A stretch of DNA of 64,000 nt from Gaiellaceae bacterium (GTDB taxonomy: Bacteria > Actinomycetota > Thermoleophilia > Gaiellales > Gaiellaceae), in contig BPGK01000001.1 in assembly GCA_026002995.1 (NCBI GenBank), positions 744,001 through 808,000 of the forward strand, given 5' to 3'. The notes under the pieces were generated by a model that made no database searches, was not told where the DNA came from, and was given only the letters and a program-made list of their open reading frames with translations. The position numbers and the translations under genes are program-made. Positions within the stretch are counted from its first letter, which is position 1, and every line of letters starts with the position of its first letter. Positions 45,933 through 63,922 of the stretch are shown piece after piece.

Positions 45933-47042
45933 TCACGCGGGCACCTCGAACCGGATGCCACCACTCGAGACGGTGTTGACCGAGAGCTCCTCGTCGAACA
46001 CCACCTTCTTCCCTTCGCGGCGCGGCTCGTGCTTCCCGGCGGCCTTCTCCTCGAGGGCTCTCAGCACGCGCTCGGGCGTGATCGGCAGCTCGGTGATCCA
46101 CACGCCGATCGCGTCGTACACGGCGGCGGCGATGGCCGGCGGCTGGGGGTTGTTCGCCATCTCGCCGATCCCCTTCGCGCCGTACGGCCCGTCTTGGGAG
46201 GGGTTCTCGATGAGGATCGTGTCGATCTGCGGCATCTCCTCCATCCCCGGCGCGAGGTACGAGCCGAAAGCGCCGCCGCGGTGCTCCACCGAGGGGTAGT
46301 ACGGGTAGCAGTTCTCGAGCACGCCGAGCCCGAGCCCCATCATCGCTCCGCCCTCGATCTGGCCCTCGACCTGCGTCGGGTTGATCGCCCGACCGACGTC
46401 GTAGCACTGCTGGAGGCGCAGGACGCGCACCTCTCCGGTCTCGTCGTCGACCTCGACCTCGGCGGCGCAGGCCGCGTACGAGATCGCGGAGTGGGGCGGG
46501 GAGTCCACCCTGCCCGTCTCCGGGTCGACGATCGCCGCGTACGGCTTGAGCTGGGCGCCGGTGCCCGTGATGAGCTCGCCGTGCCCCCACGTCGCCGCCG
46601 CGGCCACGTCCGAGATGGACATCCTCGTCTGCGGGGCGCCCTTCGCGACCACCTCGCCGTCGATGATCTCGAGGTCGGCCGGGTCGATCTCGAGCTCCTT
46701 GCCGGCGATCTCGAGGATCTTCGCCTTGACCTGGAGCGCTGCCTTCTCGGCCGCCTTGCCGGCGACGAAGGTCGCGCGCGAGGCGAAGGTGCCCGTGCAG
46801 ACGGGCGAGGAGTCGGTGTTCGAGTTGTCGTACGTGATCCAGTCGTAGGGCACGCCGATGGTCTCGGCGACGATCTGCGCCTGGATCGTCTTCGAGCCGT
46901 TCCCGATGTCCGCGGTGCCCGCGAAGACGTCGATCCGGCCGTCCGGCTTGACCTTGATCCAGCACTGCGACGGGTCGCCGTTCTGGTTCATCCCCGTCGG
47001 GTACTCGATCGCCGCGATGCCCTTCCCTCTGTGCTTGGCCAT
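45933..47042 (-). CDS. Molybdenum hydroxylase, C-terminal half of Mo-binding subunit (NdhM-like)
   Basis: 369 residues. It equals the second molybdopterin-binding domain of xanthine dehydrogenase-family large subunits: GTADIGNGSKTIQAQIVAE, CYDVGRAINPTQVEGQIEGG and the catalytic Glu in GPYGAKGIGEMANNP. In most enzymes this domain is fused to the N-terminal half. Here ATG 47042 shares one base with the stop of the N-terminal half (TGATG). The same split and gene order occur in nicotinate dehydrogenase NdhFSLM of Eubacterium barkeri. Confidence 0.85.
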   Translation of the reverse strand: MAKHRGKGIAAIEYPTGMNQNGDPSQCWIKVKPDGRIDVFAGTADIGNGSKTIQAQIVAETIGVPYDWITYDNSNTDSSPVCTGTFASRATFVAGKAAEKAALQVKAKILEIAGKELEIDPADLEIIDGEVVAKGAPQTRMSISDVAAAATWGHGELITGTGAQLKPYAAIVDPETGRVDSPPHSAISYAACAAEVEVDDETGEVRVLRLQQCYDVGRAINPTQVEGQIEGGAMMGLGLGVLENCYPYYPSVEHRGGAFGSYLAPGMEEMPQIDTILIENPSQDGPYGAKGIGEMANNPQPPAIAAAVYDAIGVWITELPITPERVLRALEEKAAGKHEPRREGKKVVFDEELSVNTVSSGGIRFEVPA

Positions 47043-48412
47043 CAGTGCTCCTCCGGGTTGCCGAGCTGCGCGACGAGGTGCTCGGGGAGCCACTCGCCCG
47101 TGCGGGGCTCGTTCGTCATTGTGCGGAATTCGGCCGAGAGCTCGTGTCCGGTCGCCTCCGCGATCGCCTGGATCGTGGGCACGGTGGACGGGTCGGTATA
47201 GACGATCCCGTTCGGCGAGGTGTCGCCGATCCGGTTCGCGTTGCGGAGCCGGATCTCGTAGGGGTCGAGGTCGAGCACGTCTGCGATTCGGCTCATGTGC
47301 GTCTCCACCGCGAACGAGACCGACGTGACGCCGAATCCGCGCATGGCCGTCGTCGGCACGCGGTTCGTGAAGACGACGTAGCCGTCGAACTCGAGGTTCG
47401 GGATCGTGTACGCGCCGGTGTGGTGGAAGCTGTGCTTCGTCAGGCCGTACGGCGAGAAGCGCGCGTACGCGCCCGAGTCGTGGAGCGTCAGCATCTTCCT
47501 GCCGAGAATCCAGCCGTCCTTCGTGACCGCGTCCGCGATCTCCATGTGCCACGGCGCCCGAGTGGATGAGCAGAGGAACTCCTCCTCGCGCGTCCAGCGC
47601 CACTTCACCGGGCGCCCGGCCTTCATCGCGAGGAGCGAGGTCATCGTCTCCGTCGCCGTGTCCACCTTGCCGCCGAAGCCACCGCCGGTCGTGCCGCCGA
47701 CGATCTTCAGCTTGTTGAGCGGCACTTGCAGGTGCGCCGCCACGACCCCGAGCGAGAAGTAGAGCGCCTGTGTGCAGGAGTAGATCGTCAGGCGCCCGTT
47801 CGGCTCCGGGACGACGAGGCAGACCTGGGTCTCGAGGGGGGCGTGCTCGATCGCTGCCGGCCTGTAGACGCCTTGCACGATCACGTCCGCCTGCTCGAAC
47901 GCCTTGGCGACGTCGCCTTTGCGGATCTGGCGGCGATCCATGCCGCCCTCGAAGTGCGGGTACCAGTTCCCCCACTGGTGGATCTTCGGCGCTTCGGGGT
48001 CGAACGCCTGGCGGACGTCGAGCAGCGCCGGGCGCTCCTCGAACTCGATCTCGATTCGCTCGACTGCCTCGGCTGCGAGCTCCTCGCTCTCGGCCGCGAC
48101 GAGCGCGATCGGCTGGCCCTTGTACCGCACGTCGTCCTTCGCGAGCAGCGGCTCGTCGGCGGGGATGCCGAGGGCCGAGAGGTGCCCGTACTCGAGGAGC
48201 GGCACGTCCTCCCAGGTGATGACCGCGTGGACGCCGGGAAGCTCGGCCGCGGGGCGCGTGTCGAGCTTCGTGATCGCAGCGTGGTGGTGTGGGGAGCGGA
48301 GGGCCTTCGCCCACAGCATGCCGGGTACGCGGACGTCGTCCACGTAGGTCGTCCGACCCGTGACGTGCGCGACGCCGTCGTAGCGTGGGATCCGTGCGCC
48401 GACGACCTTCAT
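47042..48412 (-). CDS. Molybdenum hydroxylase, N-terminal half of Mo-binding subunit (NdhL-like)
   Basis: 456 residues. The Ald_Xan_dh_C a/b hammerhead begins MKVVGARIPRYDGVAHVTG, followed by the first Mo-binding domain with GGTTGGGFGGKVD (Q/G loop) and TTAMRGFGVTSVSFAVE. It stops cleanly at PEEH before the second Mo domain. Together with the NdhM-like subunit it makes one complete Mo active site. Substrate unknown: N-heterocycle, purine or aldehyde. ATG 48412 overlaps the FeS stop (ATGA). Confidence 0.88.
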   Translation of the reverse strand: MKVVGARIPRYDGVAHVTGRTTYVDDVRVPGMLWAKALRSPHHHAAITKLDTRPAAELPGVHAVITWEDVPLLEYGHLSALGIPADEPLLAKDDVRYKGQPIALVAAESEELAAEAVERIEIEFEERPALLDVRQAFDPEAPKIHQWGNWYPHFEGGMDRRQIRKGDVAKAFEQADVIVQGVYRPAAIEHAPLETQVCLVVPEPNGRLTIYSCTQALYFSLGVVAAHLQVPLNKLKIVGGTTGGGFGGKVDTATETMTSLLAMKAGRPVKWRWTREEEFLCSSTRAPWHMEIADAVTKDGWILGRKMLTLHDSGAYARFSPYGLTKHSFHHTGAYTIPNLEFDGYVVFTNRVPTTAMRGFGVTSVSFAVETHMSRIADVLDLDPYEIRLRNANRIGDTSPNGIVYTDPSTVPTIQAIAEATGHELSAEFRTMTNEPRTGEWLPEHLVAQLGNPEEH

Positions 48413-48924
48413 GTCGCACCTCCCGTCGTCACCGTCGTGTACTTGCCCACTGCCGTCTGCGTGAGGTCGAAGCTCTCGCCACGAGCCGCCGCCGCGACTG
48501 CGTCGACGATCTTCGCGTAGCCCGTGCACCGACACACGTGCCCGCCGAGCGCCTCCTGGATCGCCTCCGGGTCGTCCGTGCCGCCGCCGTCGAGGTAGGC
48601 CTGTGCGGCGAGCAGCATCCCCGAGGTGCAGAAGCCGCACTGCGCGGCGTAGTGGTGGACGAACGCTTGCTGGATCGGGGCGAGGCTCTCGGGCGTGCCG
48701 AGGCCCTCGACCGTCGTGATCTCGGCCCCGTCCGCGTACGCGACGGGCAGCAGGCACGAGCGCCGCGGCTCGCCGTCGACGAGCACGGTGCACGCGCCGC
48801 ATCCACCCTGGTGGCAGCCGGCCTTCGGGCCGGTGATCTCCAGCTCCTCGCGAAGGACGTCGAGCAGCGGCGTCAGGGGGCCCGACTCGATCGCGTGGGC
48901 GGTTCCGTTGACAACGATGTTCAT
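48409..48924 (-). CDS. Molybdenum hydroxylase [2Fe-2S] subunit (NdhS/CoxS-like)
   Basis: 171 residues. Plant-type cluster ligands GCHQGGCGACTVLVDG plus Cys in RRSCLLPVA, and the second cluster QCGFCTSGML with GHVCRCTGY. All eight Cys are present. It relays electrons from the Mo site to FAD. ATG 48924 overlaps the FAD-subunit stop (ATGA). Confidence 0.94.
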   Translation of the reverse strand: MNIVVNGTAHAIESGPLTPLLDVLREELEITGPKAGCHQGGCGACTVLVDGEPRRSCLLPVAYADGAEITTVEGLGTPESLAPIQQAFVHHYAAQCGFCTSGMLLAAQAYLDGGGTDDPEAIQEALGGHVCRCTGYAKIVDAVAAAARGESFDLTQTAVGKYTTVTTGGAT

Positions 48925-49730
48925 GCGACCCCCTCGAGCTCGGTGAGGACGGTTCGGACGAGGACCGGCAGCACCTTGCGCCGGTACCAGGCGGAGGCGA
49001 GCGCGTCGTCCTGCGGGTCGACGTCTTCGAGGGCGGCCCGACCGGCCGCCTCGGGGTCGTCTGCCGCAGCCTCCGCGGACGGGAGGCGGACGCCCCACCA
49101 CCCGACGCCGGTCGCGGCGAGCCGGATCGTCCCGTCGGCGCCGCGCGCTCCGGAGACCGCGAGCGCCGTGTAGTCGTGTGTGTGCGGCCGATCGAGAGCG
49201 GCGAACGCCCCGGCCGCCGGTGTCTGGAAGGAGATGGAGAGGGCGAGGCGGCTGCGCCGTCGCTCGAGGAAGCTCTCGAGCGGCTCCTCCTCGATCCCTC
49301 CCGCCCCTGCGGAGCGCACGGTTGCACCGACCGCGAGGAACGGGCCCTGGAGGTCGCCCCGCGGCGCCTCGTAGCCCTCACCCGCGCAGAGGTTGCCGCC
49401 GACCGTCGCGACTCCACGGATCTCGCGATCGCCGATGTTGGCTGCGCACGGGCCGATCGGCGCCGGCAGGTCGACGAGCGCGGCGAGCGGTGTCGCGGCG
49501 CCGATGGTGACGCGGCCACCCTCGTTTTCGATCCCGGAGAGCCCTGCGTCCTTGAGGAGCAGCGCCTTCGCGGGGCGCAGCCGTCGATAGGTCAGGTCGG
49601 GGACGACGATCGTCCCCCCGCCGACCACGAGCACGCCGTCGCCGTCGCCGAACGCCTCGACGGCCTCGGCCTCGGAGGTCGGGCGGAGCACCTCCGTCGC
49701 CGCGGTCCCAGCAAGACTCGCTGTAGCCAT
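48921..49730 (-). CDS. Molybdenum hydroxylase FAD subunit (NdhF/CoxM-like)
   Basis: 269 residues. PCMH FAD-binding fold: VLVVGGGTIVVPDL, then ATVGGNLCAGEGYEAPRGD for the pyrophosphate loop and a CO_deh_flav_C domain toward the C-terminus. VVGGGTIVVP is slightly atypical of the AGGT motif. First gene of the four-gene operon. ATG 49730 starts ~45 nt downstream of a palindrome-embedded -10. Confidence 0.9.
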   Translation of the reverse strand: MATASLAGTAATEVLRPTSEAEAVEAFGDGDGVLVVGGGTIVVPDLTYRRLRPAKALLLKDAGLSGIENEGGRVTIGAATPLAALVDLPAPIGPCAANIGDREIRGVATVGGNLCAGEGYEAPRGDLQGPFLAVGATVRSAGAGGIEEEPLESFLERRRSRLALSISFQTPAAGAFAALDRPHTHDYTALAVSGARGADGTIRLAATGVGWWGVRLPSAEAAADDPEAAGRAALEDVDPQDDALASAWYRRKVLPVLVRTVLTELEGVA

Positions 49731-49757
49731 AGCCCACCCTTCTTGGTCGGAGCTTCG

Positions 49758-49783: not shown

Positions 49784-49799
49784 GCGCTGCGCCGACAGA

Positions 49800-49816
49800 T
49801 GATCGATTCTCGATCA
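49800..49816. repeat. 7-3-7 palindrome at the end of the E1 alpha gene
   Basis: TGATCGA-TTC-TCGATCA. It overlaps the E1 alpha stop and could be a weak terminator or a second protein-binding site for the adjacent promoter. Confidence 0.45.
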
Positions 49817-50845: not shown

Positions 50846-50853
50846 TAGGCAAG
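50810..50853 (-). repeat. 22-bp tandem duplication spanning the E1 beta/alpha junction
   Basis: GGTGCAGGGCTCAGTAGGCA(AG) occurs twice exactly. The upstream copy (on the minus strand) carries E1 beta's last codons and stop; the downstream copy carries the TTG and first codons of E1 alpha. Confidence 0.93.
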
Positions 50854-51804: not shown

Positions 51805-51843
51805 GGTCGCACGCAGCTTACGCCCGACGCGCATCGCCTCGAC

Positions 51844-51849
51844 TACCCT
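51844..51849 (+). promoter_or_regulatory. Leaderless -10 hexamer TACCCT for coxD-like gene
   Basis: TACCCT ends 6 nt before GTG 51856. Confidence 0.45.
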
Positions 51850-51855
51850 CCGAGG

Positions 51856-52734
51856 GTGGCGTTCCGGACGATCGACGATCTCGAAGCTGCGCTCCGCTCG
51901 GCCGACTACCTCCCGGACCGCGGGCTCGCAACCGCGCTCTTCCTCTCGCTTGCGCTCGAGAAGCCGGTCCTGCTCGAAGGCGAGGCGGGCGTGGGGAAGA
52001 CGGAGGCGGCGAAGGCCCTCGCGACAGCGCTCGACGCGCGTCTCATCAGGCTCCAGTGCTACGAAGGCCTCGACGTCTCGCACGCTGTCTACGAGTGGAA
52101 CTACCCCCGCCAGCTCCTCCACATCAGAGCCGCGCAGGAGGGGACGGTCTCGGAGGAGGAGCTCTTCGGATCGGAGTTCCTCATCCGCCGGCCGCTGCTC
52201 GAGGCCATCGACTCGGACGAGCAGGTGGTGCTCCTCATCGACGAGATCGATCGCGCCGACGAGGAGTTCGAGGCGTTCCTGCTCGAGGTGTTGTCGGACT
52301 TCCAGATCACGATCCCCGAGCTCGGGACGATCCGCGCTCGGCGTCGGCCGGCTGTCATCCTCACCTCGAACCGCACGCGCGAGCTCCACGATGCGCTCAA
52401 GCGCCGCGCGCTCTTCCACTGGATCGGCCACCCGTCCATCGAGCGCGAGATCGAGATCGTGAAGCTGCGCGTTCCCGGGATCCCCGAGCGGCTAGCGGCG
52501 GAGGCGGCTGCCTTCGTCCGCGGCTTGCGCGGGCTCGATCTCGCCAAGCCGCCGGGAGTCGCGGAGACGATCGACTGGGCGCAGGCGCTCGCGGCGCTCG
52601 GGCGCGAGGAGATCGACGCCGAGGTCGTCGAGCAGACCCTCGGCTCCGTGCTCAAGTACCGCGAGGACATCGAAGCGGTGCGCGACGAGACGCTCGTCGC
52701 CTTGATCGACGAGGCGCGCTCGGCGACCCGCTGA
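51856..52734 (+). CDS. MoxR-family AAA ATPase, CoxD-like
   Basis: 292 residues. Walker A LLEGEAGVGKTEAAKAL, YEGLDVSHAVYEWNYPRQLLHIR (CoxD-type insert, quoted in two parts: YEGLDVSHAVYEWN and RQLLHIR), Walker B LLIDEIDRAD, sensor 1 LTSNRTREL and the lid domain. CoxD is needed to mature the Mo-Cu active site of CO dehydrogenase. Here it likely serves the Mo hydroxylase 2 kb away. GTG 51856 lies just after the divergent E1 beta start. Confidence 0.88.
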   Translation: MAFRTIDDLEAALRSADYLPDRGLATALFLSLALEKPVLLEGEAGVGKTEAAKALATALDARLIRLQCYEGLDVSHAVYEWNYPRQLLHIRAAQEGTVSEEELFGSEFLIRRPLLEAIDSDEQVVLLIDEIDRADEEFEAFLLEVLSDFQITIPELGTIRARRRPAVILTSNRTRELHDALKRRALFHWIGHPSIEREIEIVKLRVPGIPERLAAEAAAFVRGLRGLDLAKPPGVAETIDWAQALAALGREEIDAEVVEQTLGSVLKYREDIEAVRDETLVALIDEARSATR

Positions 52735-52773
52735 CGGCGACGACGTCAAGAGAGTGCAACAACGTGTCCACTT

Positions 52774-52788
52774 CGGTGTCTGACACCG
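52774..52788. repeat. REP-like palindrome CGGTGTC-T-GACACCG
   Basis: A 7-bp inverted repeat around one base in the 78-nt gap between the CoxD- and CoxE-like genes. The surrounding text (GTGCAACAACGTGTCCACTT) is unlike the coding DNA around it. Confidence 0.55.
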
Positions 52789-52812
52789 TTCGTTAAGGAG
52801 CAGTCACGAGAG

Positions 52813-53946
52813 ATGTACGGCAGCGCGATCGTCCGGCACGTCGTCACCTTCGGGCGCGTGCTCCGCGAGGTCGGGATCGAGGTCGGGCCGGGGCGCGTCG
52901 TCGACGCCGTGCGTGGTCTCGGCGCCATCGACCTGACCCGACAGGAGGACGTCTACTTCACGCTCCGTCAGACCCTCGTCTCGCGCCACGACGAGCTCGA
53001 GCTCTTCGATCGCGCCTTCGTCGCCTGGTTCCTCCGCGGGCCGGTGGCGCCGCTCGTCCGCCAGAAGCACGAGCGCAAGCTCCAGGCGAAGATCGCGCGC
53101 GACACGCTCGAGTCGGGGCGCTCGGACGACGACACCGAGGTCGCGGGAGAGCCGATCGAGCTCGGCGCCTCGGCGCACGAGCTCGTGCGCGAGAAGGACT
53201 TCGCGGAGATGACGCCGGACGAGTTCGAGCGCGTCCGCCGGCTCATGCTCCTCCTCGCGAAGACACGTCCGCTACGTACGTCGCGCCGACGCGCGCCGGA
53301 TCCCCGTGGGGACGCTCTCGACCTGCGGCGGATGCTGCGGCGTTGCCTGCGGTCGGGGGGCGATCCCGTCGATCAGCCCTGGCGCTCGCGCAAGCTCGTG
53401 CCACGGAAGCTCGTCGTCCTCGCCGACGTGTCCGGCTCGATGGACGCCTACGCGCGTGCGCTCCTGCTCTTCCTGCACGCGCTCGTCGGCACGGGGCGCG
53501 GGGTCGAGGTGTTCGCTTTCGGGACGCGGCTGACGCGGTTGACGGGCGACCTCGCGACCCGCGACCCGGAGGCGGCGATCGCCCGCGCGACCGAGCAGGC
53601 CGTGGACTGGGGCTCGGGCACCCGCATCGGCGAGGCGCTCCGCGAGTTCAACGCGGTCTACGGCAGGCGCGCGCTCTCTCGCGGCGCCGTCGTTGTCGTC
53701 GTGTCCGACGGGTGGGAGCGAGACGACCCGGGCCTCGTCGCGAAGGAGATGGCGAAGCTCTCGCGCGCGGCCTACGCGGTCGTGTGGGTCAATCCGCTGA
53801 AGGGGAACCCGGAGTACCAGCCGCTCGCCGGCGGCATGCGCGCCGCGCTCCCCTTCGTCGATCGGTTCCTGCCCGGCCATAATCTCAGGAGTCTCGAGGA
53901 GCTGGCGGGCGTGCTCGCCGGCATCGAAAGGAGGCACGCAGCGTGA
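52813..53946 (+). CDS. VWA-domain protein, CoxE-like
   Basis: 377 residues. N-terminal helical region (VRHVVTFGRVLREVGIEVGPGRVVDA) and a C-terminal von Willebrand A domain with MIDAS DVSGSMDAYARA, Thr in SGTRIGEAL and Asp in VVSDGWERDD. CoxE partners with CoxD in Mo-hydroxylase metallocentre assembly. It overlaps the XdhC-like gene by 4 nt (GTGA). Confidence 0.88.
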   Translation: MYGSAIVRHVVTFGRVLREVGIEVGPGRVVDAVRGLGAIDLTRQEDVYFTLRQTLVSRHDELELFDRAFVAWFLRGPVAPLVRQKHERKLQAKIARDTLESGRSDDDTEVAGEPIELGASAHELVREKDFAEMTPDEFERVRRLMLLLAKTRPLRTSRRRAPDPRGDALDLRRMLRRCLRSGGDPVDQPWRSRKLVPRKLVVLADVSGSMDAYARALLLFLHALVGTGRGVEVFAFGTRLTRLTGDLATRDPEAAIARATEQAVDWGSGTRIGEALREFNAVYGRRALSRGAVVVVVSDGWERDDPGLVAKEMAKLSRAAYAVVWVNPLKGNPEYQPLAGGMRAALPFVDRFLPGHNLRSLEELAGVLAGIERRHAA

Positions 53947-54254
53947 AGGAGATCCTGCCCGAGATCGAGCGCTGGAAGGAGGAGGGAGAGCAGGTCGTCG
54001 TGGCCACGGTCGTTGCGACGCGGCGCTCCGCACCACGTCCGGTCGGCGCCAGCCTTGCGATCTCCGAGTCGGGGAAGATGTGCGGCTCGGTCTCGGGGGG
54101 CTGCGTCGAGAGCGACGTGTTCGAGCACGCCCAGGAGGTGCTCGCGACCGGTGAGCCGAAGCTCCTGACGTACGGCATCTCGGACGACGAGGCATGGTCC
54201 GTCGGGTTGCCCTGCGGCGGCGAGATCGACGTCTTCGTCGAGCGGGTCGAGTAG
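53943..54254 (+). CDS. XdhC/CoxI-family N-terminal domain protein
   Basis: 103 residues. It matches the XdhC_CoxI domain: VVVATVVATRRSAPRPVGASLAIS, then GSVSGGCVESDVFEHAQEVL and GLPCGGEIDVFVE. The conserved Cys residues in SGGCVE and LPCGGE are present. XdhC binds Mo cofactor and hands the sulfurated form to the enzyme. The Rossmann half is encoded by the next gene, so the usual single protein is split in two. Confidence 0.85.
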   Translation: MKEILPEIERWKEEGEQVVVATVVATRRSAPRPVGASLAISESGKMCGSVSGGCVESDVFEHAQEVLATGEPKLLTYGISDDEAWSVGLPCGGEIDVFVERVE

Positions 54255-54257
54255 CGC

Positions 54258-55010
54258 ATGGCCGGCCTCATCCATCGCCTCGCCGAGCTCCGCGCCTCGG
54301 AGGAGCGCGGCATTCTCTTCACCGCCGTCGAGGGCCCTGCCGTCGGCACGAAGGTGCTCGTGCTCGAGTCGGGCGAGCGCATCGGCGAGGGGCTCGACGA
54401 GGCCGTCGAGCGCTTCGACGAGCTCATCCGCCGGGCGCGGAACCGGCTGCTCGAGCTCTCGGACGGCTCGAAGGTCTTCGCCGAGTGGTACGGGCCGGCC
54501 CCGCGCCTCTTCGTGTACGGAGCCGTCGATACCGCCGAGGCGCTCTGCCGCGGCGCGAAGCTCCTCGGCTGGCGCACGATCGTCGCAGACGCACGCGCGA
54601 AGTTCGCGACCCCCGAGCGGATCCCGTCCGCCGACGAGCTCGTCGTCGAGTGGCCGCAGGAGGCGCTCGCACGCGTCGCTCCGGATCACCAGACCGCGAT
54701 CGTCGTCCTCACGCACGACGACAAGTTCGACGAGCCCGCGCTGATCGGCGCGCTCCAGACAGACGCGTTCTACATCGGCGCCCTCGGCTCGAGGCGCAAC
54801 CAGGAACGCCGCCGCGAGCGACTCCTCGAGGCGGGGGTGGACGAGGAGGCGCTCGAGCGGATCATGGGCCCGTGTGGCCTCGACATCGGCGCGGAGACGC
54901 AGGAGGAGACCGCGCTTTCGATCTTGGCCGAGATCGTCGCCGTCCGGGCGGGTCGCGAGGGCGGCTTCCTCAAGAACGCGAGACAGCGCATCCACGCCGA
55001 GGTCGAGTAG
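54258..55010 (+). CDS. XdhC/CoxI Rossmann-domain protein
   Basis: 250 residues. An N-terminal ~90-residue part resembles XdhC regulatory segments (ARNRLLELSDGSKVFAEWY). The XdhC_C Rossmann domain follows: LFVYGAVDTAEALCRGAKLLGW, IVVLTHDDKFDEPALIGALQ, FYIGALGSRRNQERRRERL and GPCGLDIGAETQEETALSILAEI. Gene spacing to the N-terminal domain is 3 nt. It acts in Mo-cofactor insertion or sulfuration. Confidence 0.87.
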   Translation: MAGLIHRLAELRASEERGILFTAVEGPAVGTKVLVLESGERIGEGLDEAVERFDELIRRARNRLLELSDGSKVFAEWYGPAPRLFVYGAVDTAEALCRGAKLLGWRTIVADARAKFATPERIPSADELVVEWPQEALARVAPDHQTAIVVLTHDDKFDEPALIGALQTDAFYIGALGSRRNQERRRERLLEAGVDEEALERIMGPCGLDIGAETQEETALSILAEIVAVRAGREGGFLKNARQRIHAEVE

Positions 55011-55012
55011 CC

Positions 55013-55789
55013 ATCCGCGTCGCCTGGCTTGCCGTCGCCCCGGTCAAGGGCCTCCGCCTCGTGTCGATCGAGTCCGCCGAGCTCGGACCGACCGGTATCC
55101 GAGGCGACCGCCGCTTCCTCCTCGTCGACGCGCACGGACATCTCGTCAACGCGAAGCGCGCCCCATCGCTCCTCTCGATAACGCCCGAGCGCGCCGACGA
55201 CCGCACGCTCCGCCTTCGCTTCCCCGACGGCTCGGTCGTGGAGGGGGAGGTCGAGCTCGGTGAGCGCGTCGCGACGACCCTGTACGGCGGCCCGGTTACC
55301 GGTCGCCTCGTTCTCGGCCCCTGGGGCGAGGCGCTCTCCGAGCACGCAGGACTCGAGCTTCGGCTCGTGCGGACGGGGCGCGAGGGCGACGGCTTCGACC
55401 GCGGCCCGCGAGCTGCGGTCTCGCTCCTCTCGACCGGCTCGCTCCGCGCGCTCGCCGCCGCGTCCGGATCCGAGGCGCCGATCGATGGGCGGCGCTTCCG
55501 GATGACGCTCGGCGTCGAGGCCGAGGCGGAGCACGTCGAGGACGAGTGGCTCGGGCGGCGACTTCGCGTCGGCGGCGCGGTCGTCGTCCCCCGCGACCGC
55601 GTCGGGCGCTGCGCGGTGACGACGCGCGATCCGGAGACCGGGGAGCGCGACCTCGACACGCTCGCCGCGATCGCTGCCTACCGCGGCGACGTCCCCTCCG
55701 CGGAAGCACTCCCGTTCGGCGTCTGGTGCGAGGTCGTCGAGCCGGGGCCGCTCGCCGTCGGCGATCCCGTCGAGGTGCACGAGAGGTAA
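55013..55789 (+). CDS. MOSC-domain protein with no canonical start codon
   Basis: About 258 residues. The MOSC N-terminal barrel starts VAWLAVAPVKGLRLVSI, next ELGPTGIRGDRRFLLVD, and the MOSC domain shows FDRGPRAAVSLLS and RFRMTLGVEAE. The C-terminus has RCAVTTRDPETGERD. MOSC proteins bind sulfur-carrying Mo cofactor. No ATG, GTG, TTG or CTG precedes the first strand in frame; ATC 55013 sits 10 nt after GAGG. GTG 55070 would delete the first strand. It may begin at ATC by reinitiation from the XdhC stop (TAG-CC-ATC). Confidence 0.78.
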   Translation: MRVAWLAVAPVKGLRLVSIESAELGPTGIRGDRRFLLVDAHGHLVNAKRAPSLLSITPERADDRTLRLRFPDGSVVEGEVELGERVATTLYGGPVTGRLVLGPWGEALSEHAGLELRLVRTGREGDGFDRGPRAAVSLLSTGSLRALAAASGSEAPIDGRRFRMTLGVEAEAEHVEDEWLGRRLRVGGAVVVPRDRVGRCAVTTRDPETGERDLDTLAAIAAYRGDVPSAEALPFGVWCEVVEPGPLAVGDPVEVHER

Positions 55790-55935
55790 CGGCGAGGCGG
55801 CGCGGCATCCCTCCCTTGCGCCTCGGCGCAGGACCTCCGGCGCCCGATCCTCGATCATCGATCGTTCGCGCCTCGAAGCGGTCGCCGGCGTATTAGAGTC
55901 GGGCCGGAATCTTCCCCGACCGAAAGGGGGCCGCT

Positions 55936-56874
55936 GTGACCAGCACCGACACGGGGCTCGGGATCGACGCCAAGTCCGACGCGATCTACGAGCTCGTCGA
56001 GGAAGGGTCGTCGGTCGAGCGTGTCGCGACCGGCTTCACCTTCACCGAGGGGCCGATCTGGCACCCGAAGGAGCACTACCTCCTCTTCAGCGACATGCCG
56101 GGCGACGTCCGTCGCAAGTTCACGCCGGACGGCACCGTGACCGAGGTCATGAGGCCGAGCTTCAAGTGCAACGGCATGACGTACGACGCCAATCTCGATC
56201 TCATCGTCTGCGAGCACGTGACGAGCGCGCTCTGGCGCGAGCGCGCCGACGGCTCGCGCGAGCTGCTCGCGTACCACTACGAGGGCGCGTACTTGAACAG
56301 CCCGAACGACGTCTGCGTCCACTCCTCGGGTGCGATCTACTTCTCCGATCCGTGGTACGGGCGCTTCCCCGGCTTCGGAATCGAGCGCGAGCGCGAGCTT
56401 GGCTGGCAGGGCGTCTTCCGCATCCCGCCGGGCGGGGGGCCGAACGATCTCGAGCTCATCGTCGCGAAGGACGAGTTCGACATGCCGAACGGCCTCTGCT
56501 TCTCGCCCGACGAGTCGCTCCTGTACATCAACGACACGCCGCGTGCGCACATCAAGGTCTGGGACTGCGACGCCGAGGGACGGATCTCGAACGGCCGCAT
56601 GTTCTTCGAGGGCGTCGGCACGGGCGTGATCGAGGAGGGCATCCCGGACGGGATGAAGTGCGACGAGCGAGGGAACATCTGGGTGACCGGGCCGGGCGGC
56701 ATCTGGGTGATCTCGCCCGAGGGCGAGCACCTCGGCACGATCCGTGTGCCCGAGAACACCGGGAACCTCACCTGGGGAGGCGAGGACTGGCACACGCTGT
56801 ACATCCCCGCCACGACCTCGCTCTACGCGATCAGGACGATCGTCGGCCCGCGCCGCGAGCCGTACATGGGCTAG
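55936..56874 (+). CDS. SMP-30/gluconolactonase/LRE-family protein
   Basis: 312 residues. Six-bladed propeller: FTFTEGPIWHPKEHYLLFSD (metal Glu), NSPNDVCVHSSGAIYFSD (Asn), LCFSPDESLLYINDTP (Asp/Asn) and GGIWVISPEGEHLGTI. Such enzymes hydrolyse sugar or other lactones. GTG 55936 follows AAAGGGGG. It starts a ten-gene cluster in one direction. Confidence 0.92.
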   Translation: MTSTDTGLGIDAKSDAIYELVEEGSSVERVATGFTFTEGPIWHPKEHYLLFSDMPGDVRRKFTPDGTVTEVMRPSFKCNGMTYDANLDLIVCEHVTSALWRERADGSRELLAYHYEGAYLNSPNDVCVHSSGAIYFSDPWYGRFPGFGIERERELGWQGVFRIPPGGGPNDLELIVAKDEFDMPNGLCFSPDESLLYINDTPRAHIKVWDCDAEGRISNGRMFFEGVGTGVIEEGIPDGMKCDERGNIWVTGPGGIWVISPEGEHLGTIRVPENTGNLTWGGEDWHTLYIPATTSLYAIRTIVGPRREPYMG

Positions 56875-56883
56875 GAGGAGGAG

Positions 56884-57519
56884 ATGAACGAAGAAGGCCT
56901 GCGCCTGGATCCCGATCGCTGCGTGCTGATCATCCAGGACCTGCAAAACGACGTGATCATGGACGGCGGCGCCTTCGCCGACTCCGGCTCGCCCGATCAC
57001 GCGCGCGAGCAGAACGTCGTCGAGAACGTGAAGGCGCTCGCGGAGACCTGCCGCTCGAAGGGCATCCCGGTGATCCACGTCCACTACATCGTCGAGCCGG
57101 GCGCCCCGGGGCTGAAGCTGAACGCGCCGCTCTTCCAGGGGGTGAAGGACGCGAACGCGCTCGTCCGCGGCACCTGGGGAGCGGCGCCGGTCGAGGGGCT
57201 CGAGCCGAAGGACGGCGACTTCGTCGTCGAGAAGATGCGGATGAGCGCGTGGCAGGGGACGAAGCTCGAGACCCTGCTCGCGGGCTTTGGTCGCGACACG
57301 ATCATCGTCACCGGCGCGTGGACGAACATGTCGATCGAGCACACGTCTCGCACGGGCGCGGACAAGGGCTTCTTCATGGTCGTGCCTGAGGACGGGTGCT
57401 CGACGATGAACGCGGACTGGCACAACGCGTCGATCAACTACGCGCTGCAGAATGTCGCCACCGTGACCACGTGTGCCGAGGTCACGGCGGCACTCGCCGG
57501 CGTCGGCGCCGGCGCGTGA
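56884..57519 (+). CDS. Isochorismatase-fold protein with Cys-to-Ser nucleophile change
   Basis: 211 residues. The cysteine-hydrolase fold is clear: CVLIIQDLQNDVI (catalytic Asp), FVVEKMRMSAW (Lys). The nucleophile position, normally Cys in a GxxTxxCVxxT motif, reads TGAWTNMSIEHTSR, with Ser. The family includes nicotinamidase, maleamate amidohydrolase and isochorismatase. With Ser it may be weakened, use a different mechanism (as PhzD does without Cys) or only bind. ATG follows GGAGGAG. Confidence 0.88.
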   Translation: MNEEGLRLDPDRCVLIIQDLQNDVIMDGGAFADSGSPDHAREQNVVENVKALAETCRSKGIPVIHVHYIVEPGAPGLKLNAPLFQGVKDANALVRGTWGAAPVEGLEPKDGDFVVEKMRMSAWQGTKLETLLAGFGRDTIIVTGAWTNMSIEHTSRTGADKGFFMVVPEDGCSTMNADWHNASINYALQNVATVTTCAEVTAALAGVGAGA

Positions 57520-57581
57520 GAGGAAGGTCCGGGGGTGCGCCGTCGTCTGCGGCCGGCGGCCATCCCGGGGCCGCTCCCGCC

Positions 57582-58679
57582 ATGACCTCGCGCGCCGCGA
57601 TCTTCTGGGGGCCGGGACGGCCGTTCACCGTCGAGGAGGTCGAGCTCCGCGAGCCGCGCATGGGCGAGGTCGTCGTGCGGATGGTCGCGGCCGGAATCTG
57701 CGGGACAGACCTGCACTCGGTTCGAGGTGAGTTCCGACGGCCGACGCCGATGGTGCTCGGCCATGAGGGGGCGGGCGTCGTCGAGTCGGTGGGCGACGGA
57801 GTCGAGCGCGTCGCGGTGGGCGACGAGGTGGTTCTCTCGTGGGCGCCCTCCTGCGGCGAGTGCTTCGACTGCCGTCGCGCTCGACCGGCCGCGTGCTCGC
57901 GGCTGCACGCGGCGATCGCCGCGGGGACGCTCGTGGACGGGACGACGGGGATTACGCTCCGCGGCGAGCTCGTGTACCGGGGAACGGCGACGGGCTGTCT
58001 CGCCGAACGGGTAGTCGTCTCCGAGCGGGTTGCGCTCCCGACGGGAGGCGCCATCCCGCTCGAGCAAGCCGCGCTCCTCGGCTGCGCAGCGCTCACCGGG
58101 GTCGGCGCGGTGCTCTTCGCCGCACGTGTCGAGGAGGGCGAGTCCGTGCTCGTCGTCGGCGCGGGCGCCGTCGGTCAGTTCGCGGTGCAGGGCGCGCGGA
58201 TCGCAGGGGCGGGGGAGATTGTCGCCGTCGATCCGGTCACCGCGCGGCGCGAGCAGTCGCTCGCGCTCGGCGCGACACACGCGTTCTCGCCTTCCGAGAT
58301 CGAGGCGGCGTTGCCGGAGATCCTCCCCGACGGAGCGGACGTCGGCTTCGACGCGGTCGGCGATCCGCGGACGACCGCTGTGACGCTCGAGCTGACGCGG
58401 CCCGGTGGGCGGGCGGTGCTCGTGGGGCTGCCAGCAGCCGGAGCGCGGCTCGACCTCGACCCCGCGCTGTTCGTCCGGCGCGAGAAGTGGCTCACCGGGA
58501 CGATGTACGGCTCCGAGGATCCCGCCGTCGCGCTGCCGATCCTGCTCGAGCACGTGCGGGCCGGCCGCCTCCTCCTCGAGCCGCTCCTCGGGCCGAGGTT
58601 CGCGCTCGAGGACGTGAACGAGGCGGTGGCAGCGAGTCTCGCCGGGTCGCCCGGTCGGGTATTGGTACGGCTCTCGTGA
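57582..58679 (+). CDS. Zinc-dependent alcohol dehydrogenase (MDR family)
   Basis: 365 residues. Catalytic zinc ligands ICGTDLH (Cys), LGHEGAGVVE (His/Glu) and structural zinc SCGECFDCRRARPAAC. Cofactor Rossmann VLVVGAGAVGQFAVQGARIAG. It oxidises an alcohol to an aldehyde in the pathway, whose product could pass to the ALDH 0.5 kb on. ATG 57582 was chosen because the upstream extension overlaps the preceding gene. Confidence 0.92.
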   Translation: MTSRAAIFWGPGRPFTVEEVELREPRMGEVVVRMVAAGICGTDLHSVRGEFRRPTPMVLGHEGAGVVESVGDGVERVAVGDEVVLSWAPSCGECFDCRRARPAACSRLHAAIAAGTLVDGTTGITLRGELVYRGTATGCLAERVVVSERVALPTGGAIPLEQAALLGCAALTGVGAVLFAARVEEGESVLVVGAGAVGQFAVQGARIAGAGEIVAVDPVTARREQSLALGATHAFSPSEIEAALPEILPDGADVGFDAVGDPRTTAVTLELTRPGGRAVLVGLPAAGARLDLDPALFVRREKWLTGTMYGSEDPAVALPILLEHVRAGRLLLEPLLGPRFALEDVNEAVAASLAGSPGRVLVRLS

Positions 58680-59053
58680 TCGAGCAGGTCGAACGGATGC
58701 GCGTGGCGTGGGTGGACACCGATGCAGGTGGGCGGATCCACTTCACGAACGCGTTCCGTTGGGCCGAGGTGGCCGAGACGAGCCTCATGCGTCGGCTCGG
58801 GATGCTCGAGCGCTGGGGCGACTACCCGCGTCGCCACGTCGAGGCCGAGTTCCACAAGGTGCTCCGCTTCGAGGACGAGTTCGACGTCCGCCTGCGCGTG
58901 GAGGCCGTCGGTAGGACGTCCATCACGTACGCCTGGACGCTCGAGCGGGACGGCGAGGTGTACGTGAGCGGCCGCCACACCGTGGTCTCCGTCGATCGCG
59001 AAGGGAGACCGGAGCCGCTCGCCGACGACGTGCGGGCTGCCCTCTCGGGCTGA
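58676..59053 (+). CDS. Acyl-CoA thioesterase, 4HBT hotdog family
   Basis: 125 residues. Hotdog fold: RVAWVDTDAGGRIHFTNAFRW contains the catalytic Asp of the 4HBT type and the following helix AEVAETSLMRRLG, then EAEFHKVLRFEDEFDVRLRV. It hydrolyses an acyl-CoA in the cluster's pathway. GTG 58676 overlaps the ADH stop (GTGA). Confidence 0.85.
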   Translation: MIEQVERMRVAWVDTDAGGRIHFTNAFRWAEVAETSLMRRLGMLERWGDYPRRHVEAEFHKVLRFEDEFDVRLRVEAVGRTSITYAWTLERDGEVYVSGRHTVVSVDREGRPEPLADDVRAALSG

Positions 59054-59139
59054 AGCGCCGTCCATCGGGGCGGACGGAGGCGACGCAGGCGCTCGAGCTC
59101 GCTGGTCACGCACGGGTCGGCCCGGCTCGGCCGCTCGAC

Positions 59140-59145
59140 TATCGT
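59140..59145 (+). promoter_or_regulatory. Leaderless -10 hexamer TATCGT
   Basis: TATCGT ends 7 nt before GTG 59153, dividing the cluster into two transcription units. Confidence 0.45.
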
Positions 59146-59152
59146 TCGCGCC

Positions 59153-60619
59153 GTGACCGCAGTCGAGGTTCCGCTGCTACGCCGCCAGGCATTCGTGGAC
59201 GGAGCGTGGGTCGACGCCGACTCGGGCGAGACCTTCCCCGTGACGAATCCGGCGACGGGGGAGGTGCTCGCCGAGGTTCCGCGCATGGGCGTCGCCGAGA
59301 CCCGGCGAGCGCTCGCCGCGGCCGAGCGTGCGCTGCCCGAGTGGAAGCACCGCACGGCGAAGGAGCGCGCGCGTGTGCTGCGTCACCTGGCGGATCTCAT
59401 GCTCTCTCACGAGGAGGAGCTCGCGCGGCTGATGGTGCTCGAGCAGGGCAAGCCGCTCGCGGAGGCGCGCGTCGAGGTCGCCTACGCAGCCTCCTTCTTC
59501 GAGTGGTTCGGAGAGGAGGCCAAGCGCGTCTACGGCGACACGATTCCGTCGCCGTGGCCAGACAAGCGGATCCTCGTGACGAAGGAGGCCGTGGGTGTCA
59601 CGGCTGGCATCACGCCCTGGAACTTCCCGGCGGCGATGCCGGCGCGCAAGGCCGCGCCGGCGCTCGCGGCGGGGTGCACGATGGTGCTAAAGCCGGCGGA
59701 GCAGACGCCGCTCTCGGCGCTCGCGATCGCAGCGCTCGCGGAGGAGGCAGGGGTGCCGCCCGGCGTGCTCTCGGTCGTGACCGGAGCCGCCGAGGATGCG
59801 CCGGCGATCGGGGGCGAGATGACCTCCAACCCCGCCGTTCGCAAGCTCGGCTTCACCGGCTCGACGCAGGTCGGGAAGCTCCTCGCCGCGCAGTGCGCGG
59901 CCGGGCTCAAGAGGATCTCGCTCGAGCTCGGGGGGAACGCGCCGTTCATCGTCTTCGACGACGCCGACCTCGAGGAAGCCGTCGCCGGAGCGCTGCTCTG
60001 CAAGTACCGGAACTCGGGCCAGACGTGCATCTCGGCCAACCGGCTGCTCGTCCAGGACGGGATCTTCGACGACTTCGTATCCGCGTTCACCGACGCGGTG
60101 CGCGCGCTGAAGGTGGCGGACGGCTTCACGGAGGGCGTGAACGTCGGCCCGCTCATCGACGAGCCCGCGCTCGAGAAGGTCGAGCGCCACGTCGTGGACG
60201 CGCTCGAGCGGGGCGGCGAGCTGCTCGTCGGCGGAGAGCGCATCGAGGGGCAGTTCTTCCAGCCGTCCGTCATCGTCGGCGTCACCGCCGATGCGGCGAT
60301 GAGCTGCGAGGAGACGTTCGGGCCGGTGGCGGGGATCGCGCGTTTTCGGACCGAGGAGGAGGCGGTGCGGATCGCCAACGAGACCCCGTATGGGCTCGCG
60401 GCCTACTTCTACGCCCGTGACCTCGGTCGCGTGACGCGGGTGGCGGAGGCGCTCGAGGTCGGGATCGTCGGCATCAACACGGGCCTCATCTCGACCGAGG
60501 TCGCGCCGTTCGGCGGGGTCAAGGAGTCGGGGATCGGCCGCGAGGGCTCCTCGTACGGCATCGACGAGTGGCTCGAGCTGAAGTACTGGGCGGTGGGCGG
60601 GATCGGAGCGCCGCTGTGA
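59153..60619 (+). CDS. NAD(P)-dependent aldehyde dehydrogenase, succinate-semialdehyde type
   Basis: 488 residues. Complete ALDH: GITPWNFPAAMPARKAAPAL, ELGGNAPFIVFDDADL (general base) and NSGQTCISANRLLVQD (nucleophile Cys). The N-terminal signature DGAWVDADSGETF and GVKESGIGREGS are typical of GabD-like enzymes. Substrate is a semialdehyde, identity unknown. GTGA overlap with the next gene. Confidence 0.92.
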   Translation: MTAVEVPLLRRQAFVDGAWVDADSGETFPVTNPATGEVLAEVPRMGVAETRRALAAAERALPEWKHRTAKERARVLRHLADLMLSHEEELARLMVLEQGKPLAEARVEVAYAASFFEWFGEEAKRVYGDTIPSPWPDKRILVTKEAVGVTAGITPWNFPAAMPARKAAPALAAGCTMVLKPAEQTPLSALAIAALAEEAGVPPGVLSVVTGAAEDAPAIGGEMTSNPAVRKLGFTGSTQVGKLLAAQCAAGLKRISLELGGNAPFIVFDDADLEEAVAGALLCKYRNSGQTCISANRLLVQDGIFDDFVSAFTDAVRALKVADGFTEGVNVGPLIDEPALEKVERHVVDALERGGELLVGGERIEGQFFQPSVIVGVTADAAMSCEETFGPVAGIARFRTEEEAVRIANETPYGLAAYFYARDLGRVTRVAEALEVGIVGINTGLISTEVAPFGGVKESGIGREGSSYGIDEWLELKYWAVGGIGAPL

Positions 60620-60930
60620 TCGTCGAGCTGCGCGACTACCACGTCACGACCGGCAAGCTCCCCGAGCTCGTGCGCCTGTACGAGACCGAGGGGAGCGCTA
60701 TCCAGCAGGAGTACCTCGGCACCTTCGTGGGCGCTTTCACGACGGACGTCGGCGAGCTCTCCACCTACACGCACATCTGGGCCTACGAGAGTCACGCCGA
60801 CCGGGAGGCGCGCCGCGCGCGGTTGCAGGCGGACGTACGCTGGCAGGCGTTCCTCGCGAAGATCCAGCCGCTTATCCACACGCAGCGCAACCGGATCATG
60901 ATCCCGACGTCCTTCTCCCCGCTCCGATGA
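60616..60930 (+). CDS. NIPSNAP-family protein
   Basis: 104 residues. IVELRDYHVTTGKLPELVRLYE, FTTDVGELSTYTHIWAY and a C-terminal LIHTQRNRIMIPTSFSPL match the NIPSNAP family (dimeric ferredoxin-like). Members occur in catabolic operons, but their role is unclear. GTG 60616 overlaps the ALDH stop. Confidence 0.87.
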   Translation: MIVELRDYHVTTGKLPELVRLYETEGSAIQQEYLGTFVGAFTTDVGELSTYTHIWAYESHADREARRARLQADVRWQAFLAKIQPLIHTQRNRIMIPTSFSPLR

Positions 60931-60969
60931 GCGCGTCCCGGTCAGCCTCGAGCTCGCTCAGGCGGCCTC

Positions 60970-61707
60970 ATGGTCGTGGAGCCTGAGATGGGAGCGCTCG
61001 ACGGGAAGGTCGCGATCGTGACCGGCGGCGCACAAGGCATCGGCGCCGCGATCGCCCGTGGCCTGGAGGCGGAAGGAGCGACCGTCGCCGTCGTCGACCT
61101 GAACCCGCCGGAGGGCGGCATCAGGGCCGACGTGGCCTCGGAGGCGGATGTCGCCCGGATGACCGAGGAGGTGCTCGCGCGTCACGGTCGCATCGACATC
61201 CTGATCAACAACGCGGGTCTCTACGCGTCGCTCGCGATGCGGCCGTTCACGGAGATCCCGCTCGAGGAGTGGAATCGGGTCATGGAGGTCAACGTCGCTT
61301 CCATGTTCCTCACCTGCCGGGCCGTCGTGCCGGTGATGCGCGAGCAGGGTGGGGGGAAGATCGTGAACATCTCCTCGGGGACTCCGTTCCGCGGCGTTCC
61401 CTTCCTCCTCCACTACGTGACGTCGAAGGGCGCCATCGTCGCGCTCACCCGCGCGCTGGCGAAGGAGCTCGGCAAGGACGGGATCCACGTGAACTGCGTC
61501 GCGCCCGGGTTCACGATGTCCGACGGGGTGAAGGCGCATCCCGAGGTGATCGAGAAGCTACGCGACGTGTCGATCGCCGCGCGCACGATCCAGCGCGACC
61601 AGGTGCCCGAGGACGTCGTCGGCGCGGTGGTCTTCCTCTGCACGCCCGCGGCGGACTTCATCACGGGCCAGACGATGGTGATCGACGGCGGCCAGTACTT
61701 CCATTGA
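60970..61707 (+). CDS. SDR-family oxidoreductase
   Basis: 245 residues. TGGAQGIGAAIARGL cofactor loop, NNAGLYAS, catalytic Ser in ISSGTP and YVTSK (YxxxK). C-terminal GQTMVIDGGQYFH. It reduces or oxidises a ring or side-chain hydroxyl. ATG 60970 or ATG 60988; the latter starts nearer the beta1 strand. Its TGA overlaps TTG of the cupin gene. Confidence 0.9.
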   Translation: MVVEPEMGALDGKVAIVTGGAQGIGAAIARGLEAEGATVAVVDLNPPEGGIRADVASEADVARMTEEVLARHGRIDILINNAGLYASLAMRPFTEIPLEEWNRVMEVNVASMFLTCRAVVPVMREQGGGKIVNISSGTPFRGVPFLLHYVTSKGAIVALTRALAKELGKDGIHVNCVAPGFTMSDGVKAHPEVIEKLRDVSIAARTIQRDQVPEDVVGAVVFLCTPAADFITGQTMVIDGGQYFH

Positions 61708-62276
61708 TCCTCGCGCTCTTCGAGCAGCCCGAGGGCGTGAGGACCCGCGGGGAGACCGGAGTCGTCTACGACATCGATGCGAACGCCGCGCGCTCGGGCG
61801 CCGCGCGGGTCGAGGGGCCCGCACTCCTCTTCGCCCTCGCGAGCGACCACGACGCGCTCGTGGCTCTGAGCCACGAAGTCTCGGGCGCCCCCGCGCTCGC
61901 CGTCGAGGTCATGCTCGATCCGAGCGTCGAGTGGCTCGTCCGCTGCGACCGCGTCGACTTCCCTCCCGGCGGCGTCGCCTACCGACACGTCCATCCCGGC
62001 CCCGGGATCCGACGGCTGCTCCACGGGGAGCTGACGATCGACCGCGGCGACGGGGCCCCGTGCACGTATCGAGCGGGCAAGGCCTGGTTCGAGGGCGCCG
62101 ACGACCCGGTGCTCGCGACCGCCTCGCCGACGGAGGAGACAGCGTTCGTTCGCGTCCTCCTCCTCCCCGCGGCGTGGGCCGGACGGCGCACGATCCGCTA
62201 CGTCGAGCCGGGGGACGAGGAGCGCCCGAAGCTCCAGCGTGCGACGATCCTCCTCGAGGAGCCTCTGCCACGATGA
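61704..62276 (+). CDS. Cupin-fold protein with TTG start
   Basis: 190 residues. The N-terminal half is not typical. The cupin core is residues ~75-130: RVDFPPGGVAYRHVHPGPGIRRLL and GKAWFEGADDPVLA, with His ligands in HVHPG. It could be a dioxygenase-like or isomerase enzyme of the cluster. TTG 61704 gives a TTGA overlap; upstream in-frame sequence is the SDR gene. Confidence 0.75.
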   Translation: MILALFEQPEGVRTRGETGVVYDIDANAARSGAARVEGPALLFALASDHDALVALSHEVSGAPALAVEVMLDPSVEWLVRCDRVDFPPGGVAYRHVHPGPGIRRLLHGELTIDRGDGAPCTYRAGKAWFEGADDPVLATASPTEETAFVRVLLLPAAWAGRRTIRYVEPGDEERPKLQRATILLEEPLPR

Positions 62277-63922
62277 GGCGAACGGGCGGTCGTATCCTCG
62301 TCGACCAGCTCGAGCTGAACGGCGCCGACCTCGCGTTCTGCCTCCCGGGCGAGAGCTTCCTGCCGGTGCTCGACGCGCTCCACGACTCCCCGATCCGGCT
62401 CGTCTCGTGTCGCCACGAGCAGGGAGCCGCGAACGCCGCCGAGGCGTACGGCAAGCTCACCGGGCGACCGGGAATCTGCATCGTGACGCGCGGGCCCGGT
62501 GCGACACAGGCCGCGGTCGGCGTCCACACGGCGCGCCAGGACTCGACGCCGATGCTCCTGCTCGTGGGCCAGGTCCCTCGGGGATTCCGAGGTCGCGAGG
62601 CGTGGCAGGAGCTCGACTACGCCGAGAGCTTCCGCGGGATCGCGAAGGCCGCCTGGGAGATCGACGCGGTGGAGCGGATCCCCGAGCACGTCGCGCGGGC
62701 GTACTCGCTCGCGCTCTCGGGGCGTCCGGGCCCGGTGGTGCTCGCGTTGCCGGAAGACGTGCTCGCCGAGGAGGCGGAGGTCGCCGACGGCGCCCCCGTC
62801 GAGGTCGAGCACGCCGCTCCACGGCCCGAGGACCTCGCGCGGCTGGCCGAGCTGCTCGCGCGGGCAGAGCGCCCGCTCGTCGTCGTCGGCGAGGGCGGGT
62901 GGACCGCCCGGACCGGCCAAGACATCCTCGCCTTCTGCGAGACGAGCGAGCTTCCGATCGCCTGCTCCTTTCGCTGCCAGGACTTCGTCGACAACCGCTC
63001 GCCGTCGTACGTCGGCGTCCTCGGTGTGGCGATGGACGACGCGCTCGCGGCAAGGCTCCGCGACGCGGACCTCGTGCTCGCAGTCGGCGGCCGGCTCGGC
63101 GAGGTGCCGACACGCCGGTACACGTTGCTCGAGCCGCCACGGCCGCGCCAGACGCTCGTCCACGTCCACCCTGATCCCAGCGAGATCGGGCGTGTGTACG
63201 AGCCGGAGCTCGGGATCGTCTCCTCGCTCGAGGCGTTCGCGCGCGAGCTCGTGGAGATGGGCGTGACGGCTCCGCGCTGGCGCGCGTGGACGCGCGCGGC
63301 CCGCGCCGACTACGAAGCGAACCTGCGCCACGAGCCGATGGAAGGCCCGGTCGACCTCGGGGAGATCATGGCCTTCCTGCGAGGGCGGCTACCTCCGGAC
63401 GCGATCCAGACCTGCGGGGCCGGCAACTTCACCGTGTGGGCGCACCGGTTCGCCGAGTTCACGCAGTTCGGCACGCAGGCGTGCCCACGCTCGGGCTCGA
63501 TGGGCTACGGCCTCGCGGCCGCGATCGCAGCGAAGCTCGTACACCCCGACCGGATCGCCCTCTGCTTCACGGGCGACGGCGACTTCGTCATGAGCTCCCC
63601 CGAGCTTGCGACTGCGATCCAGTACGAGCTCCCGATCGTCGTTCTCCTCGTGAACAACGGGATGTACGCGACGGTACGGATGCACCAAGAGCGCGCGTAC
63701 CCGGGCCGCGTGATCGGCACCGACCTCCGCAACCCCGACTTCCCCGCTCTCGCGCGCGCGTACGGCGCCTTCGGCGAGCGGGTGGAGCGCACCGATCAGT
63801 TCGAGGCCGCGTTCGAGCGCGCGCTCGCCTCGGGGAGGCCCGCGGTGCTCGAGCTGCCGGTCGACCCCGAGCGGATCAGCCCGCGGGTGCGGCTCAGCGA
63901 GCTGCGAGCGAGGGCGTCGTGA
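62273..63922 (+). CDS. Thiamine-diphosphate enzyme, acetolactate synthase/benzoylformate decarboxylase superfamily
   Basis: 549 residues. Three domains of the POX/ALS family. Catalytic Glu is in VSCRHEQGAANAAEAYG, central FAD/DHS-like domain ~185-320, and the ThDP site is TGDGDFVMSSPELATA with VLLVNNGMYATVR. It would ligate or decarboxylate a 2-oxoacid. No regulatory subunit is nearby, which argues against true acetolactate synthase. ATG 62273 overlaps the cupin stop (ATGA). Confidence 0.88.
   Translation: MRRTGGRILVDQLELNGADLAFCLPGESFLPVLDALHDSPIRLVSCRHEQGAANAAEAYGKLTGRPGICIVTRGPGATQAAVGVHTARQDSTPMLLLVGQVPRGFRGREAWQELDYAESFRGIAKAAWEIDAVERIPEHVARAYSLALSGRPGPVVLALPEDVLAEEAEVADGAPVEVEHAAPRPEDLARLAELLARAERPLVVVGEGGWTARTGQDILAFCETSELPIACSFRCQDFVDNRSPSYVGVLGVAMDDALAARLRDADLVLAVGGRLGEVPTRRYTLLEPPRPRQTLVHVHPDPSEIGRVYEPELGIVSSLEAFARELVEMGVTAPRWRAWTRAARADYEANLRHEPMEGPVDLGEIMAFLRGRLPPDAIQTCGAGNFTVWAHRFAEFTQFGTQACPRSGSMGYGLAAAIAAKLVHPDRIALCFTGDGDFVMSSPELATAIQYELPIVVLLVNNGMYATVRMHQERAYPGRVIGTDLRNPDFPALARAYGAFGERVERTDQFEAAFERALASGRPAVLELPVDPERISPRVRLSELRARAS

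Follow-up and report, generated by a model that had tools for sequence, protein, structure and literature searches.

A cysteine-less branch of the isochorismatase fold with a near-obligate SMP-30 partner in Mo-hydroxylase gene clusters

We describe a branch of the isochorismatase fold that lacks the catalytic Cys, has a near-obligate SMP-30 partner within a Mo-hydroxylase gene cluster, and may carry out Asp-Lys chemistry without a nucleophile, a reading of the sequence data in which we place roughly even confidence. The member from which the analysis departs is encoded at 56884..57519 (+ strand) of the window, by which we mean the whole stretch analysed, 64,000 nucleotides from a Gaiellaceae bacterium. 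Cys-less isochorismatase-fold proteins are already known in PhzD, EntB and YecD; the Ser/Ala branch paired or fused with SMP-30 appears to be new. A literature search, with most subscription journals outside its scope, found no description of such a branch or of its catabolic cluster, and nothing that combines isochorismatase and SMP-30.

Serine at the nucleophile position

The gene encodes a protein of 211 aa from an ATG start, and its ORF begins 9 bp past the end of the upstream SMP-30 gene (55936-56874). Membership in the Pfam family Isochorismatase is clear: residues 14–198 match PF00857 with E = 3.9e-45, at 154.5 bits against a cut-off of 27. The original prediction, that Ser stands in place of the catalytic Cys with Asp and Lys kept, was confirmed by alignment to solved relatives. 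Ser150 (codon TCG, 57331..57333, + strand), within the motif TGAWTNMSIEHTSR, aligns to the catalytic Cys position of 3kl2, YecD and RutB, with the RutB Cys-to-Ser mutant 8bll also in the alignment, and the catalytic Asp and Lys positions are held by Asp19 (GAC, 56938..56940, + strand) and Lys117 (AAG, 57232..57234, + strand). Instead of the Asp-Lys-Cys triad of the cysteine hydrolases, the window protein and every relative of more than 50% identity carry Asp-Lys-Ser. An AlphaFold2 model of the protein (pLDDT 87.8, pTM 0.88) found 3kl2 as its top Foldseek match (E ~1e-19, TM ~0.9), followed by BiuH, RutB and TrtA. Trp146 of the window protein is close to where the oxyanion hole is expected, which makes the pocket unlike that of relatives.

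Absence of Cys across the clade

A pattern scan in which each species was represented by a single genome found 372 relatives, of which 80 were kept. One of its six probes, WTNMSIEH, contained the Ser and could have biased the search; profile searches of whole genomes were therefore added. These took in the relatives, 397 Actinomycetota, the classes to which a Hoeflea genome (385 genomes), the window (299) and an Acidimicrobiia genome (247) belong, and genomes grouped around two Ala members. The result was the same. Ser held the Cys position in 90 of 90 relatives above 50% identity and no orthologue had Cys; this is the fixation that the original prediction had proposed looking for, and the refuting condition that it named did not arise. 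Below 50% identity, 16 of 17 had Cys; the remaining one, at 47%, had Ser. When distinct proteins were instead sorted by score against the family profile, those above 180 bits comprised 119 with Asp-Lys-Ser, five with Asp-Lys-Ala and one with Asp-Arg-Ala; below 180 bits, 21 of 27 had Cys and the rest Val (3), Ala (2) or Gly (1).

The 119 distinct Ser-bearing relatives come from Thermoleophilia, Acidimicrobiia and Proteobacteria, and all 119 keep both Asp19 and Lys117. More of the ancestral site survives, with Gln21, Gly144, Thr154 and Arg156, like Asp19 and Lys117, at or near 100% conservation. There is no sign of a relocated Cys nucleophile, as none of the Cys columns is invariant across the 119 (C13 is present in 82 and C172 in 87). 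Pairwise dN/dS was ~0.06–0.23 for Ser members; two Ala pairs gave 0.08 and 0.36.

Taken by itself, loss of the nucleophile could mean that the gene is a lone, decayed copy of an ordinary cysteine amidase. This explanation, which we regard as exceedingly improbable, is refuted by the orthologues: Ser is fixed across phyla, Cys is missing from the whole clade, and the genes are under purifying selection. Pseudogene formation or sequence damage is likewise ruled out by dN/dS well below 1 and intact ORFs. Judged by these alignments, the Cys-less protein is a genuine branch of the fold and not a broken gene.

A maximum-likelihood tree of 84 rows placed 51 Ser rows and 6 Ala rows in one clade (57 rows, support 100/98) that contained zero Cys rows; its neighbour in the tree, joined at 94/77, carries Val or Ala instead. 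Ala is nested at least twice within the clade. The claim that the change to Ser was selected thus stands in part: fixation in orthologues and purifying selection bear it out, but Ser gives way to Ala in these lineages, so that on the aligned sequences the absence of Cys, rather than Ser strictly, is the conserved trait. The Ala members of the clade keep Asp19, Arg119 and Trp179 in 6 of 6 and Lys117 in 5 of 6. Two of them (L191 and L233) lie in the same gene cluster as the Ser members L199, L200 and L240, a cluster of CoxM, CoxS, split CoxL, SMP-30, isochorismatase, FAH and Liv transporter genes; the genome of L191 (G159) is a single contig with no second close match. Ala lineages are ~43–57% identical to the window protein, and their sequences could reflect a changed function.

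Other departures from the triad were noted. A Sphingomonas plasmid relative (L113, ~38% identical), annotated 'cysteine hydrolase', reads Asp-Arg-Ala and has no SMP-30 within 16.6 kb. In two further isochorismatase-fold proteins (L123 and L172) no triad residue is left: His stands in for both Asp and Lys, and the Cys position holds Val or Ala. The L123 locus also has an SMP-30 gene.

The SMP-30 partner

Near-obligate pairing or fusion with a predicted SMP-30 lactonase is, from gene order and sequence, the main clue to the role of the branch, and one that the original prediction did not mention. The window partner (55936..56874, + strand) belongs to the SMP-30/gluconolactonase-like family by its PF08450 match (E 5e-49; best PDB matches 3e5z and 3dr2) and by its conserved metal-site residues. 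Its Glu38, Asn124, Asn185 and Asp238, which we take to be the expected metal and substrate site positions of SMP-30, are invariant in 12 aligned sequences. An SMP-30 gene was present in the loci of 117 of 119 Ser proteins versus 0 of 19 Cys proteins that had sufficient flanking sequence, counts that come from related loci and are not independent events; two Ser members had no SMP-30 in the flank examined.

Among loci of at least 54% identity, SMP-30 lay directly upstream of the isochorismatase gene in 111 of 111, and in 69 of these the two formed one ORF, a set in which Bradyrhizobium is heavily represented and some loci are counted twice. The fused forms come from Proteobacteria and make up most of the relatives there, and Actinomycetota have two separate genes. 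The linker between the fused domains is variable and rich in Pro and Ala. A model of a fused protein (526 aa) reached a pLDDT of 71.2 overall, with a good propeller and a poor isochorismatase half, from a shallow alignment. One fused locus (L088), which looks like those of Bradyrhizobium, is in a record titled Frankia sp. RB7; either a wrong title or contamination of the assembly may explain this.

The Mo-hydroxylase cluster

The catabolic cluster described in the original prediction proved real and conserved, as a Mo-hydroxylase neighbourhood. Large, medium and small subunits, together with CoxD/CoxE/XdhC-type accessories, place the enzyme in the xanthine oxidase/CODH family. On the - strand of the window lie the C-terminal half of the large subunit as a separate gene (45933..47042), its N-terminal half (47042..48412), a CoxS-like 2Fe-2S subunit (48409..48924) and a CoxM-like FAD subunit (48921..49730). 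On the + strand follow a CoxD-like MoxR AAA ATPase (51844..52734, start approximate), a CoxE-like VWA protein (52813..53946), an XdhC-like Mo-enzyme maturation protein (53943..55010) and a MOSC-type protein (55013..55789, start approximate, named from sequence reading and not a family search). Past the isochorismatase gene, also on the + strand, are a Zn-dependent alcohol dehydrogenase family member (57585..58679), an aldehyde dehydrogenase of the succinate-semialdehyde dehydrogenase subfamily (59153..60619, TIGR01780 above cut-off), a short-chain dehydrogenase (60970..61707) and a thiamine-diphosphate enzyme of acetolactate-synthase type (62273..63922, named from sequence reading), the last with orthologues near several relatives. 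No Rfam match was found in 44000-64000.

Two features of these genes were noted in passing. The large subunit is encoded by two overlapping genes (45933-48412), a split found also in Yoonia, Shinella, Hoeflea, Bradyrhizobium and Acidimicrobiia loci; nicotinate dehydrogenase has the same kind of split, and its large subunit (3hrd) is the best PDB match of an orthologue of the N-terminal half (locus L112). The XdhC-like gene is divided by an in-frame TAG into ORFs at 53943-54254 and 54258-55010 (103 and 250 aa), an arrangement with similar two-piece counterparts in two related loci, L189 and L190, whereas L041 has a single 355 aa ORF.

Where 5 kb of upstream sequence was available, 88 of 99 loci had Mo-hydroxylase or Cox accessory genes, a count that includes redundant loci (many Bradyrhizobium, some counted twice); the Gammaproteobacterial loci L198 and L076 have no Mo-hydroxylase nearby. 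An annotated Yoonia plasmid locus runs, in order, two SRPBCC, FAD subunit, split molybdopterin subunit, MoxR, VWA, amidohydrolase, AHL-lactonase family, isochorismatase fusion, SDR, FAH, SDR. Acidimicrobiia loci have a branched-chain-type ABC transporter in addition, and several loci have RidA genes. Just upstream of the Mo-hydroxylase genes, several Alphaproteobacteria encode a very long, repeat-rich flotillin-domain protein (in L112 at 2605-5994).

As possible sources of the substrate we weighed nicotinate, uracil, vitamin B6 and L-rhamnose/L-fucose-type routes, none of which fits all parts. The FAH neighbour scored 412 against a cut-off of 500 for 2,4-didehydro-3-deoxy-L-rhamnonate hydrolase; the cluster amidohydrolase is nearest to 4dlf, and the MBL protein to AHL lactonases and 4-pyridoxolactonase.

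Proposed mechanism and alternatives

From this setting we infer a catalytic function at all, and with it an acid/base mechanism, the order of steps and a substrate class. The isochorismatase domain would catalyse the step next to the lactonase with no covalent cysteine intermediate. The Asp19-Lys117 pair would act as general acid/base, as in PhzD and EntB on vinyl ethers, and Ser150 would fill the old nucleophile pocket, orienting substrate or water. The gene context suggests that a lactone intermediate is made downstream of the Mo-hydroxylase, and the substrate would be of the class of Mo-hydroxylase products opened as a lactone. Some points weigh against this reading: the pocket differs near Trp146, the Ala lineages may have taken on another function, and the strict fixation of Ser outside them suggests that the hydroxyl does something. 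A reaction other than amide hydrolysis, as in the original prediction, is favoured because engineered Cys-to-Ser mutants of BiuH and TrtA fail to hydrolyse their amides (PMC5806882, PMC7948467). More tentatively, and somewhat short of an even chance, the SMP-30 and isochorismatase pair may be a bifunctional enzyme of an undescribed Mo-hydroxylase catabolic route common to Actinomycetota and Proteobacteria, in which the nucleophile-free isochorismatase domain catalyses a reaction new to the fold.

In the main rival explanation the isochorismatase fold has no catalytic part and serves the SMP-30 lactonase for binding, oligomerisation or regulation. Such a role would account for many of the same features: the nucleophile is lost, Ser and Ala interchange, and the near-obligate or fused SMP-30 keeps its expected metal-site residues invariant. 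Yet conservation of Asp19, Gln21, Lys117, Gly144, Thr154 and Arg156 exceeds the needs of a scaffold, and two Ser members have no SMP-30 in the flank examined; we consider the explanation unlikely, though a serious one. We think it still less probable that Ser150 is itself a nucleophile, with a working Asp-Lys-Ser triad directed at a more reactive substrate, whether ester, lactone or activated amide. The invariant Asp and Lys beside Ser (119 of 119) would suit such a triad, as would retention of Ser across two codon families (117 TCN and 2 AGC codons in the 119 members) and a partner that is a predicted lactonase. There are precedents too: HqiA is an isochorismatase-fold AHL lactonase, though with Cys (PMC5430456), in another family of Cys hydrolases a Ser-dependent member has been reported (PMC13400389), and BiuH C169S formed a tetrahedral adduct on Ser (PMC7948467). 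Against this, Ala replaces Ser in nested lineages, and two Ala members share the gene cluster of Ser members, which implies that the Ser150 hydroxyl is probably not an obligatory nucleophile. Taken with the inactivity of the BiuH and TrtA Ser mutants as amidases and with EntB and YecD, natural Asp-Lys-Gly members (PMC12553813), these Ala members make a Ser nucleophile unlikely. We therefore favour two readings, acid/base chemistry by Asp and Lys or a partner role without catalysis.

Most proteins of the fold are annotated 'cysteine hydrolase', a label borne by many of the search matches, including one with Ala at the site. An entire branch can be mislabelled in this way, as the coherent, lactonase-fused Cys-less clade that spans phyla shows. 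The branch offers a test case for chemistry, or a partner role, that evolved after loss of the nucleophile.

Comparison with known systems

By both sequence (E 2e-30) and fold (TM ~0.9) the best PDB match of the window protein is 3kl2, a putative isochorismatase of Streptomyces avermitilis, which differs in having Cys at the site and is ~33% identical. The cysteine amidohydrolases BiuH, TrtA and RutB share the fold and the active-site Asp, Lys, Gln, Gly and Thr landmarks, but have Cys where the window protein has Ser, a different neighbourhood and ~25% identity by structure alignment. The window protein falls well below the NCBIfam equivalog cut-offs for RutB (71.1 of 378 bits), BiuH (56.8 of 370 bits) and YecD (PRK11440, 82.3 of 195 bits).

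The isochorismatases PhzD, EntB and VibB resemble the window protein in keeping Asp and Lys without Cys (EntB, PMC12553813; Lys and Asp roles, PMC12210187); the window protein has Asp19 and Lys117, and its branch no invariant Cys. The PhzD precedent cited in the original prediction holds, and EntB and YecD share it. In the PhzD/EntB/VibB group, nonetheless, the Cys position is occupied by Gly instead of Ser or Ala and identity is only ~20%, with the structures 2fq1 (E 3e-8) and 1nf9 (E 8e-4) matching far more weakly than 3kl2; no siderophore or phenazine genes were seen near the window isochorismatase gene. E. coli YecD, the second best PDB match by sequence, is likewise a natural Cys-less Asp-Lys member, with Gly at the site; its G145C mutant gains amide hydrolysis (PMC12553813). 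As for the partner, it shares PF08450 with the known SMP-30/gluconolactonase family, from which the Proteobacterial form is set apart by its fusion to an isochorismatase fold.
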